Part shown: in pieces, positions 14,039 through 17,903 of the stretch
Layout: each line of letters opens with the position of its first letter
Numbering within the stretch: position 1 is the stretch's first letter
Origin: a virus
Strand: one strand, 5' to 3'
IMG/VR virus record: IMGVR_UViG_3300049893_001681
Span: 1 to 27,613 of that record
Length of the DNA: 27,613 bases
The notes under the pieces: model-generated
What the model was told of the DNA's origin: nothing
What the model saw: only the letters and a program-made list of their open reading frames with translations
The model's database searches: none
Translations under genes and position numbers: made by a program

Positions 14039-14575
14039 ATGCAAATCGTTACGGTAAAAATATCTGAAATTCAAGAGAATAAAAACAATCCAAGATTTAT
14101 TCGAGATAAAAACTTTAAAAAACTGGTAAGTTCAGTAAAAGAATTTCCAGAAATGCTTAATATACGCCCTATTGTGGTAAATAAAGATATGACAATACTT
14201 GGGGGCAATATGAGGTTTAAGGCTTGTTTAGAAGCAGGATTAAAAGAAATTCCTATTATCATAGCTAATAATTTAACCGAAGAACAAGAAAAAGAATTTT
14301 TGATTAAAGATAATGTTTCTGGCGGTGAATGGGACTGGGATGTTTTAGCAAATGAGTGGGATTCAGAATTGTTAAATCATTGGGGCGTTGAAACTTTTGA
14401 AAGTAGCGATATTAATTTAGATGATTTTTTTGAAGAAAATGGAGATTCAGAAAAGGAACAGAAATTTAAAATAGTTCTGGAATATACTGAAGAAGATTTT
14501 GCTGAAATATCTGAATTATTCAAAAAACATTCTGGAACAAAAGAAGAGATAGTTTTTAATCTTTTATCAAAATGA
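14039..14575 (+). CDS. ParB-like nuclease-domain protein
   Basis: This 178-residue protein has an N-terminal ParB/Srx-like domain: VKISEIQENKNNPR, KKLVSSVKEF, and the box ILGGNMRFKACLEAG near residues 57-71 (G-G-N-x-R-x-x-A is the phosphate-binding motif of the family). Then comes IPIIIANNLTEEQEKEFLI. The second part contains WDWDVLANEWD and LLNHWGVE, seen in ParB-like proteins adjoining phage DNA-modification genes. The acidic C-terminal 60 residues (EYTEEDFAEISELFKKHSG) form a separate helical tail. As first gene of the operon, overlapping the next by ATGA, it probably guides or supports base modification. Nuclease or CTPase activity is not shown. Confidence 0.75.
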   Translation: MQIVTVKISEIQENKNNPRFIRDKNFKKLVSSVKEFPEMLNIRPIVVNKDMTILGGNMRFKACLEAGLKEIPIIIANNLTEEQEKEFLIKDNVSGGEWDWDVLANEWDSELLNHWGVETFESSDINLDDFFEENGDSEKEQKFKIVLEYTEEDFAEISELFKKHSGTKEEIVFNLLSK

Positions 14576-15309
14576 AAGTTTTTTTAGCTGGTAGTGGATG
14601 GGAAAAATTATGGTTTAATGATAATTTTTTTGATTTTTCAAGATTAAATACTTTTTATCAAATAAATGATAAAGAAGCAAAAAAAATTCATTTATATAAG
14701 GACTTTTTATTGGATTCGGGAGCATTTAGTTTTATAGGTGGGGCAAAGGTATCAATGAATGAATATATTGAAAAATACATCGATTTTATTAATAAATACG
14801 ATATAAAAAATTTTTTTGAATTAGACCTTTACACGCTTCCTGAGTATGGTATTAAAAAAACCGAAGAAATAAGAGCATATATTGAAGAAAAAACTAAAAA
14901 AAAAACAATACCAGTTTTTCACAAAATGCTTGGGATAGATTATTATAAAAAATTGTGTGAAGATTATAATTATATTGCTATCGGAGCATCGGGACAGCAC
15001 GATAGCAAATGGACGAGAACAAATCCTGAACAGTTAAAAAAAATGGTACTATATGCTAATTCAAAAAATGTAAAAGTACACGGACTGGGGTACACTAAAA
15101 TTGAAATGCTAAAAAAAATTCCATTTTATTCTGTTGATTCAACTTCTTGGTTATCTGGAAATAGATTTGGTGCAATTTATGTTTTTAATGGTTCGGGCTT
15201 CGATAAAAAATGTAAACCAGTTGGAATGAGAGTTAAAACAGATATGACAGCAAAAAATAATTTTTACGAATGGATAAAATTTCAAAAATACGCAGAAATA
15301 AATTTATAA
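14572..15309 (+). CDS. dpdA: DpdA-like DNA guanine transglycosylase
   Basis: This 245-residue protein resembles the tRNA-guanine transglycosylase-like enzyme DpdA of phages. Landmarks in order are LDSGAFSF (47-54), FFELDLYTLPEYG (81-93), PVFHKMLG (114-121), AIGASGQHD (136-144), VHGLGYTKIEML (169-180) and SVDSTSW (187-193). The DSGAF and SVDSTSW motifs are typical of the phage branch, and their aspartates are candidates for the catalytic residues. The protein is shorter than bacterial TGT (about 370). It would exchange guanine in DNA for preQ0 or a derivative supplied by the downstream enzymes. A tRNA role is unlikely given the absence of the TGT zinc motif. Confidence 0.8.
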   Translation: MKVFLAGSGWEKLWFNDNFFDFSRLNTFYQINDKEAKKIHLYKDFLLDSGAFSFIGGAKVSMNEYIEKYIDFINKYDIKNFFELDLYTLPEYGIKKTEEIRAYIEEKTKKKTIPVFHKMLGIDYYKKLCEDYNYIAIGASGQHDSKWTRTNPEQLKKMVLYANSKNVKVHGLGYTKIEMLKKIPFYSVDSTSWLSGNRFGAIYVFNGSGFDKKCKPVGMRVKTDMTAKNNFYEWIKFQKYAEINL

Positions 15310-15310
15310 A

Positions 15311-16078
15311 ATGAATATTTTAGGACATACAGCAATAGGAATTACTGGTTATTTAATTACTGGTAGTGAATTTTTTTTAATAGGTAGTTTAATTCCAGAT
15401 ATCTCATTAATTGGAAATGAACTTAAATTTAAAAAATTTGATAAATGGAACGTAAGAGGAAAAGTTTTTTATGATATTACTCATTCCTTGTATTTTCCTT
15501 TTTTATTATTTTTTATTAATTGGAATCTATTTTTAGGTGTTTTAATTCATATTTTAGTAGATATTCCGTTTCATAGTTCAAGTTTTCGTTGGAAACCATT
15601 TTTAATCAATCGATATAAACCAGTAAAAAAGGCATTATTATTATCGGGGGGAATGGACTCCGTCGCTTGTGCATTACTGGAAAAAGATTTTGATTGTATT
15701 TATTTTAATTACGGACAAGAATATCACTATCTTGAACATCCAATGGCCGAAGAAATGGCAAAAAAATTAGGAAAAGAATTGATTGTAATTAATAAAAATT
15801 GGAAAACAGATATACAAAATAGAAATTATTATCTTATATCTGAAGTTAAAAAATTAGGTTACAATGAAGTAATTATTGGAACACGAAATATAATACCTCT
15901 TTTTGATAAATACAAAGATAGTAACTGGTTAAATTTAAAAATTTATCAATACTTAATGGGTATTTATATTAATATGCCTTTAATTGGTCAATTTAAGTGG
16001 CAAATTCAAAAAAAATTAAACGGTTATAATAAATACTATTCAACTGAGAAATATGTATCAATCAACAAAAATATTTGA
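15311..16078 (+). CDS. Fusion: DUF457/YdjM-like membrane hydrolase + QueC-like domain
   Basis: This 255-residue protein shows two modules in one frame. Residues 1-105 have hydrophobic segments and conserved H6, D30, H58, H80, D84, H88 with THSLYFP and LIHILVDIPFH, as in DUF457/YdjM-type membrane-bound metal-dependent hydrolases. Residues 106-255 carry SGGMDS (112-117, the PP-loop of ATP pyrophosphatases), FNYGQ (132-136), QNRNYYL (169-175) and VIIGTRN (187-193), as in QueC, which converts 7-carboxy-7-deazaguanine to preQ0. The C-terminal four-cysteine zinc site of QueC is absent: the chain ends YYSTEKYVSINKNI. The C-terminus overlaps queD by 26 nt. Membrane tethering of preQ0 synthesis or a changed product are possible. 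Confidence 0.75.
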   Translation: MNILGHTAIGITGYLITGSEFFLIGSLIPDISLIGNELKFKKFDKWNVRGKVFYDITHSLYFPFLLFFINWNLFLGVLIHILVDIPFHSSSFRWKPFLINRYKPVKKALLLSGGMDSVACALLEKDFDCIYFNYGQEYHYLEHPMAEEMAKKLGKELIVINKNWKTDIQNRNYYLISEVKKLGYNEVIIGTRNIIPLFDKYKDSNWLNLKIYQYLMGIYINMPLIGQFKWQIQKKLNGYNKYYSTEKYVSINKNI

Positions 16079-16499
16079 TAATTATTCAGTAGCGTTAAGA
16101 CAATGGAAAGCAAAACATTCTCATTGTCAATTGCTACATGGTTACGCTTTAAAATTTAAAATTTGGTTTACATCAGAATCTTTGGACGATATGAACTGGA
16201 TTGTAGATTTTGGAGGGTTTAAACATAACGGATTAAAGGACTGGATGAACGAAATGTTTGACCACACTTTACTAATTGAAAAAGACGATCCTTATTTAGA
16301 TTTATTCCAATCAATGTCAATGGAAGGTTTGTGTAAATTACAAGTGTTGGAAAAAATAGGTTGTGAAAGCCTTGCAAAGTTAGTATTTGATAAATTTAAT
16401 CATACTTTATCTTTACAAGATGCTGGAAGATGTAAGGTTGTAAAAGTAGAAGTATTTGAAAATGAAAAAAATAGTGCAATATATGAGGTTAAAAGTTAG
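16053..16499 (+). CDS. queD: 6-carboxytetrahydropterin synthase-like protein (QueD)
   Basis: This 148-residue protein has AKHSHCQLLHGYALKF (residues 20-35), with candidate metal ligands His22/24 and His29 and catalytic Cys25, then NWIVDFGGFK (48-57), FDHTLL (69-74) and CESLAKLVF (104-112, Glu105). It follows the longer QueD branch in which HGY replaces the HGH of classical enzymes. QueD converts dihydroneopterin triphosphate to 6-carboxytetrahydropterin, the second step of 7-deazaguanine synthesis. The start codon lies inside the QueC-like gene and its end overlaps queE by 17 nt, so the four biosynthesis genes are translationally linked. Confidence 0.85.
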   Translation: MYQSTKIFDNYSVALRQWKAKHSHCQLLHGYALKFKIWFTSESLDDMNWIVDFGGFKHNGLKDWMNEMFDHTLLIEKDDPYLDLFQSMSMEGLCKLQVLEKIGCESLAKLVFDKFNHTLSLQDAGRCKVVKVEVFENEKNSAIYEVKS

Positions 16500-17085
16500 T
16501 GAAATATTTTATTCCTTACAAGGTGAAGGAGCAAGAATAGGAACTCCGACAATCTTTATAAGATTAAGCGGTTGTAAAGCAAAAAACGCTTGTTATTCAA
16601 TGGGTATTAAATGTGATACCGAGTTTGAAAGTGGTCAAGAAATGTCAATTCAGCAAATATGCGACTGGATTAAAGAAAACGCGCCACAATGCAGAGAAAT
16701 CACTTGGACTGGTGGTGAACCAACAGACCAATTAACAGCAGAAATTGTCAATCATTTTAAAAGTGACGGATTTTACCAAACCATTGAAACAAGTGGTTTA
16801 AATCCAGTTCCAGAGGGTATTGATTTTATTTGTGTTTCACCAAAAGTAGCAGAACACGTTATTAAAAAAAACTTTCCAAAAGGAGTTAATGAATTACGCT
16901 ATGTAAGACATAAAGGACAATCAATTCCAGAGCCAAGCATAAAAGCCGAACATTATTGGATTTCACCTCATTCAGACGGATTTAATATAAATTCAGAAAA
17001 TTTAAAGCATTGTATCGATTTATGTATAAAAAACGGTCAATGGAAATTATCACTTCAAAATCATAAAATATGGAACGTTTTGTAA
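16483..17085 (+). CDS. queE: 7-carboxy-7-deazaguanine synthase-like radical SAM protein (QueE)
   Basis: This 200-residue protein starts at the ATG at 16483 because QueE proteins begin close to the conserved [19 protein letters not shown]; an upstream in-frame extension lies inside queD. Other marks are RLSGC (27-31), TWTGGEPT (74-81), ETSG (102-105), SPK (119-121) and a C-terminal LQNHKIWNV. It converts 6-carboxytetrahydropterin to 7-carboxy-7-deazaguanine. The cysteines for the [4Fe-4S] cluster are at 31, 37 and 44 (C-x5-C-x6-C), not the usual CxxxCxxC. Other QueE variants with altered spacing are known, so the protein may still be active. It overlaps folE by 16 nt. Confidence 0.85.
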
Positions 17086-17903
17086 TTAGTTGGAAAGAAA
17101 TTCAACAAAGAGTTGAGGAACTAAAAAAATTTATTGGTAATAAAAAAACGTATGGAGTTCCAAGAGGAGGTCAATATATTTCAGCAATGCTAAATCCAGT
17201 TGATACAGTTGAGGAGTGTGATATAATTATTGACGATTTAATTGATTCTGGAACTACTTATGAAAATTTTAGAGATAAATATCCAGACAAACCTTTTATC
17301 GCTCTATATAACAAAAAAACAGAGGAAAATTTGAAGAATAAATGGCTTGTTTTTCCATGGGAAATAAAAGAAGAACCAGTTGAAGATAATTTTAAAAGAA
17401 TATTGCAATATTTAGGTGAGGACGTTGAAAGGGAAGGATTAAAAGATACACCAAAAAGGTATATTAAATTTATGAAGGAATTTTTAAAACCGAAAGAATT
17501 TAATTTTACAACGTTTGACGCTGAAGGTACGGATGAAATGGTGGTACAAACAAACATTCCTTTTTATTCACTATGCGAACATCATACGGCACCTTTTTTT
17601 GGTGTTGCTCACGTTTCATATATTCCAAATGGAAAAATAGTTGGTTTGTCTAAATTAGCAAGGACGGTTGATTTATACGCAAATAGATTTCAAAATCAAG
17701 AAAGAATTACGACACAAATTGCTGAAAGGTTACAAAAAGAATTAAATCCACTCGGTGTGGCCGTTGTAATTAAAGCACAGCATTTGTGTATGTGCATGAG
17801 AGGAGTAAAAAAGCATGATACTTGGACGACAACAAGTAAAATGATAGGAGTTTTTAAAACTGATTTAAACACTCGAAATGAATTTTTAACGTTGATTAAA
17901 TAG
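17070..17903 (+). CDS. folE: Fusion: phosphoribosyltransferase-like domain + GTP cyclohydrolase I (FolE)
   Basis: This 277-residue protein has two parts. Residues 1-105 form a short type I phosphoribosyltransferase-like region: [10 protein letters not shown] (27-36), the PRPP-loop-like [12 protein letters not shown] (52-63) and WLVFPWE (92-98). Residues 106-277 are GTP cyclohydrolase [10 protein letters not shown] (127-135), [14 protein letters not shown] (165-178), [18 protein letters not shown] (191-208) and HLCMCMRGV (238-246), with zinc ligands and catalytic residues C169, H171/H172 and C240 or C242. FolE makes dihydroneopterin triphosphate, the first committed step. The fused PRTase could feed or recycle purine nucleotides near the FolE active site, but its activity is unknown. 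Confidence 0.85.

Follow-up and report, generated by a model that had tools for sequence, protein, structure and literature searches.

The stretch analysed here (the window) is a complete IMG/VR virus record, IMGVR_UViG_3300049893_001681, of 27,613 bases, possibly a fragment, and our subject is a predicted 7-deazaguanine DNA-modification operon within it. Positions 14039-17903 are exactly filled by six same-strand open reading frames (ORFs) that overlap or nearly abut, in the order ParB-like, DpdA, QueC-like, QueD, QueE and FolE (Table 1), and genes for the small and large terminase subunits lie directly downstream. Together with the terminases, the other genes recognized in the window (NinG, RadC-like, ERF recombinase, exonuclease, single-strand-binding, portal and major head proteins) therefore indicate, by predicted gene content, a tailed phage infecting bacteria. 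A first-pass annotation had proposed a six-gene 7-deazaguanine operon with two domain fusions; family matches for all six genes bear out the operon, and both fusions are real, one joining a YdjM/phospholipase C (PLC)-like domain to QueC and the other a xanthine phosphoribosyltransferase (PRT)-like domain to FolE.

Table 1. Genes and domains of the operon, with window coordinates and family matches
Feature	Coordinates	Strand	Matches
ParB-like protein, 178 amino acids	14039..14575	+	PF02195 (ParB_N) 4.8e-10; PHROG 620 and 498
DpdA-like DNA guanine transglycosylase, 245 amino acids	14572..15309	+	PHROG 887 2.9e-47
YdjM/Zn_dep_PLPC-like N-terminal domain of QueC fusion	15311..15616	+	PF00882, PF04307 (sub-threshold in family members)
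QueC-like PP-loop core	15617..16078	+	PF06508 1.4e-6
QueD-like 6-carboxytetrahydropterin synthase	16053..16499	+	PF01242 8.7e-17; PHROG 2389 5.3e-37
QueE-like 7-carboxy-7-deazaguanine synthase	16483..17085	+	TIGR04508 5.3e-34 (under model cut-off)
Xanthine/guanine PRT-like N-terminal domain with phosphoribosyl pyrophosphate (PRPP) loop	17070..17363	+	NF006613 4.9e-9; PHROG 8995
FolE GTP cyclohydrolase I domain	17364..17903	+	PF01227 3.7e-66; TIGR00063 (above cut-off)

DpdA, its ParB-like partner and the supply genes

By profile alignment (hhalign), the predicted transglycosylase aligns with the longer DpdA proteins of phages CAjan, VpKK5 and NP1 (99.6%, 6e-25), while a Pfam search returned no match to the tRNA-guanine transglycosylase (TGT) family. 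Four of its residues, D48 (in DSGAF), D85 (LD), H170 and D189 (VDS), are invariant in 12 relatives, and D48 and D189 are what we take to be the counterparts of the TGT catalytic aspartates; structure prediction gives a TIM barrel (pLDDT 83.5). CAjan DNA contains dPreQ0 (PMC6884629). That the operon instead supplies queuosine or archaeosine for tRNA modification appears highly improbable, given that the transglycosylase falls with the phage DpdA proteins that act on DNA, lacks the Pfam TGT match and adjoins both a ParB DNA-binding-type protein and the terminase genes. The first-pass statement that a tRNA-type TGT is absent is nevertheless untenable, because a 27.6-kb record may be incomplete.

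The parB-like gene overlaps dpdA by 4 bases. Using the conserved QueE type to locate related cassettes in IMG/VR, we collected 115 viral stretches, which reduced to 66 distinct cassettes. DpdA was detected in 58 of the 66, and ParB lay adjacent to it in 44 of these 58 and nearby in a further 11, with none detected in the remaining 3. The bacterial DpdA is likewise paired with a ParB-like protein, DpdB (PMC12839542), and other base-modifying enzymes of phages are also found together with ParB domains (PMC12783734); with 55/58 cassettes having ParB adjacent to DpdA or close by, the coupling is thus the rule and not the exception. The ParB-like protein is a probable DNA-targeting partner of DpdA, by analogy with DpdB.

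Several known systems resemble the operon in part. Bacterial Dpd islands (DpdA/DpdB/DpdC), likened here by their published description, share a TGT-like DpdA with a ParB-like partner but are host defence islands with restriction genes and known dPreQ0/dADG products (PMC12839542). Cellulophaga phage phiSM carries DpdA, ParB-like, QueC, QueD and QueE genes in a single block, although in DpdA-ParB order, with a canonical zinc QueC, no fusion and FolE elsewhere. Bacteriophage sp. MT835752, from human faeces, has the same order of ParB, DpdA, QueC-like, QueD, QueE and FolE followed by a terminase-small-like ORF, but its QueC-like protein keeps a cysteine cluster and lacks the N-terminal domain. Vibrio phage VpKK5 and Pseudomonas phage NP1 share DpdA, PRT-fused FolE, QueD, QueE and either QueC or Gat-QueC, and differ in their longer DpdA, their gene order, their zinc QueC or Gat-QueC and the lack of an annotated ParB gene.

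Family searches show FolE, QueD and QueE to be encoded together, and by homology these enzymes would produce 7-carboxy-7-deazaguanine (CDG) from GTP. For QueE, an ATG at 16483 is preferred as start over a TTG at 16456. Its iron-sulfur cysteines are spaced Cx5Cx6C (16573-16614), unlike the known radical S-adenosylmethionine forms CxxxCxxC or Cx14CxxC, yet all three are invariant in six aligned sequences and the overall family match is still strong. In five cassettes (L005, L009, L012, L014 and L016), QueD and QueE of clearly different sequence types occupy the same operon position, and it therefore appears that cassette genes have been swapped while their order was kept.

The PRT-FolE fusion had been thought distinctive; however, full-length relatives occur in VpKK5, NP1, MMDA13 and others, and long FolE ORFs make up 39 of 83 distinct ones. 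A PRPP-type loop is present in nearly all of these 39 (18 by a strict pattern and the rest by eye, except one ORF that is likely mis-started). Since the transglycosylase releases guanine, the PRT domain plausibly, and probably, returns the freed base to GMP.

A zinc-less QueC fused to a YdjM/PLC-like domain

The anomalous part of the operon is QueC, which is neither complete nor canonical, whereas the first-pass annotation had taken it for a complete, ordinary enzyme. The fusion protein has 255 amino acids, of which PF06508 covers residues 109-170 only, and its core carries the motifs SGGMDS, YxQ(x)5E, RN, YKDS and PL(x)4K before terminating in ...YYSTE, just short of the position of the zinc cluster in canonical QueC. 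Set against the published motif lists for QueC and Cap9 (PMC13329287), the phosphate loop SGGxDS is present and invariant save for the x position, while YxQxHxxE, VPxRN and YPDC are replaced by YxQ(x)5E, RN alone and YKDS, and the C(x)8CxxCxxC zinc site is absent from all 10 distinct fusions found in viral sequences, the window included. In Foldseek searches, the predicted core matched B. subtilis QueC (3bl5, 9e-7) and Cap9 (9nto, 2e-6).

Frameshift or decay as the cause of the short QueC was rejected, with an identical end point in the 10 distinct sequences and dN/dS of 0.07-0.34 over both halves of the fusion, indicating purifying selection. A related explanation is that QueC is degenerate and the phage inserts CDG itself (as dCDG) or host-made preQ0, the fusion contributing the function of its N-terminal domain or nothing. 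We consider this unlikely. In its favour, E. coli QueC depends on a tyrosine in the zinc-cluster region that is absent here (PMC13329287), and the existence of cassettes in which no QueC was detected implies that bases at the CDG stage, or salvaged ones, may suffice. However, the motifs SGGxDS, RN, YKDS and PLx4K show little or no variation across all nine aligned members, dN/dS of the QueC half is 0.07-0.3, and absence of the four cysteines is common among full-length phage QueCs, so that their loss need not equal lost function. Across the 59 distinct QueCs examined, 47 lack the four-cysteine zinc motif, many of them full-length phage proteins. The zinc cysteines are all replaced in the full-length QueCs of L015, L055, L059, L063-L068 and others, for example by DYNG...NNNPATELR or HTSYDG...NHANVLR.

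The altered motifs fit the published Cap9 pattern, YxQ(x)5E with P(F/L)x4K, and not the canonical YxQxHxxE, with Y134, Q136 and E142 invariant in the fusion; moreover, Cap9 (9nto), from type IV CBASS, is the best PDB profile match and the second by fold. The fusion might then act as a Cap9/QatC-like enzyme, coupling CDG to an amine on a small molecule or at a protein N-terminus in place of forming preQ0; the outcome would be either a tag on a protein or a novel substituted 7-deazaguanine destined for DNA. We regard this as quite unlikely: the profile match reaches 25 bits only, a single-sequence search favours QueC (2pg3), the Cap9 cysteine cluster is missing, no CD-NTase match was found among the six operon genes, and the fusion gene sits where DpdA operons usually carry QueC. 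A search for full Cap9 sequences on which to build a tree gave fragmentary, unconvincing matches only.

Residues 1 to ~102 of the fusion form a helical domain with a weak match to the YdjM and zinc-dependent PLC families (PF00882 score 22.3 in the window vs a cut-off of 26.8; PF04307 score 32.0 vs a cut-off of 29 in the stand-alone relative L041) and with no credible relative in the PDB. Its putative metal ligands, H6, D30, H58, H80, D84 and H88, are invariant in fused and stand-alone forms. In another phage type, six distinct operons (L040, L041, L049, L050, L051 and MMDA13) carry the stand-alone gene immediately downstream of queC, and in all six the next gene is a small one homologous to the MMDA13 gene predicted to be QueF-like (PMC7472734). 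The YdjM/PLC-like domain is thus fused to QueC in one lineage and encoded next to it in another, which argues for a functional tie between the two. As a general substitute for the zinc site, the domain fails as a rule among the 59 distinct QueCs: the zinc-less forms include 10 with the domain fused and 5 with it adjacent, but the adjacent QueC of L049 keeps its cysteines and 32 zinc-less QueCs lack such a neighbour.

Sphingomonas phage vB_StuS_MMDA13 (PMC7472734) shares a zinc-less QueC followed by a YdjM/PLC-like protein (gp34, annotated as hypothetical), a predicted QueF-like protein, QueD, PRT-FolE and DpdA. Unlike the operon described here, it encodes the two domains separately, with a full-length QueC; its DpdA belongs to the other, CAjan/NP1, type, and no ParB turned up in the stretch. 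A full-length structural match to the fusion was found in BFVD, in the 252-residue protein A0A6J5N497 of an uncultured Caudovirales phage (72% identity, TM ~0.82), whose record names it plain 'QueC' and mentions neither the N-terminal domain nor the missing zinc cluster. Named phages gave no direct tblastn match to the fusion, and a pattern-based search of GTDB species genomes, which distant relatives could escape, found no intact fusion and nine loci matched by the QueC part alone. A limited literature search found neither the fusion nor the glycosyltransferase cassettes described below in previous work, and the YdjM/PLC-like fusion thus appears not to have been reported previously for QueC.

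A variable slot between DpdA and QueD

The occupant of the position between DpdA and QueD differs among the cassettes: it may be QueC, zinc-less QueC, Gat-QueC (L104), QueF with QueC (L116), the YdjM/PLC-QueC fusion, a transporter of the YhhQ/Vut_1 type, or a glycosyltransferase-like gene paired with a small conserved protein. Such variation points to the slot as the probable determinant of the final base, and to the fusion as one chemistry among several.

In eight cassettes (L052:2079-3367, L058, L075, L094, L103, L114, L115 and L122), no QueC was detected and a glycosyltransferase-like gene is present (PF00534; 8e-9 in L114, weak in L052). The glycosyltransferase cassettes also hold a conserved protein of ~110 amino acids, perhaps QueD-like by eye, without a Pfam match. 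A glycosylated 7-deazaguanine in the DNA of such phages is possible. In two others, the transporter fills the QueC slot (L061:1494-2000 and L085:2358-2864), which suggests import of a ready-made 7-deazaguanine. Fusobacterium phage phiFN37 (L002:5360-7669) has a salvage-type layout, in which the ParB-DpdA pair precedes a DUF6884/YaaA-like protein, possibly a DpdC-like one, and a gene annotated as a queuosine-precursor transporter.

Proposed function and significance

DpdA-type 7-deazaguanine DNA modification is strongly supported as the best reading of the operon, and we assign a probability of roughly 0.78 to its making a 7-deazaguanine base from GTP and inserting it into phage DNA. This part of the first-pass annotation stands on homology, kept aspartates, gene order and conservation, and at least 66 distinct viral sequences carry the cassette; most of the distinctiveness claimed for it does not stand, both the ParB coupling and the gene order being widespread among related cassettes. 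After synthesis of CDG, the fusion would activate it with ATP through the intact PP-loop to give an amide- or nitrile-type derivative (7-amido-7-deazaguanine (ADG), preQ0 or a variant), and DpdA, guided by its ParB-like partner as in the bacterial DpdA/DpdB system, would exchange DNA guanine for that base. The modified DNA may then evade host restriction, as is established in other DpdA phages.

Several points weigh against this reading. A fold search with the DpdA model returned generic TIM barrels only, with no TGT among the 50 matches listed, so the identity of DpdA rests on sequence. The likening of the ParB-like protein to DpdB draws on its gene position beside dpdA. Conversion of CDG is not assured, because the QueC core has neither the zinc cluster nor the region of the essential tyrosine. 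We also know of no measured base for any phage with the YdjM/PLC-QueC fusion.

Plain preQ0 is uncertain as the product, since QueC is both fused and zinc-less. Given the Cap9-like motif pattern (PMC13329287), a novel substituted base is conceivable, with modest probability. Under one tentative and unlikely proposal, the fusion would make a 7-deazaguanine new to phage DNA, such as CDG coupled to some other amine that the metal-dependent domain frees or trims, with ParB-DpdA inserting the product.

Collectively, the modification operon is itself of a known kind, and the novelty lies in its fused, zinc-less QueC. The fusion family represents a conserved QueC without the zinc site that has been described as a defining motif, and a metal-type domain without an assigned pathway role is linked to zinc-less QueC both by fusion and by separate adjacency. 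The last step is where phage 7-deazaguanine systems differ, and it decides the base and hence which restriction enzymes are blocked. These cassettes suggest a chassis of ParB-DpdA-(variable slot)-QueD-QueE-FolE, in which the slot would serve as a readable list of candidate base chemistries.
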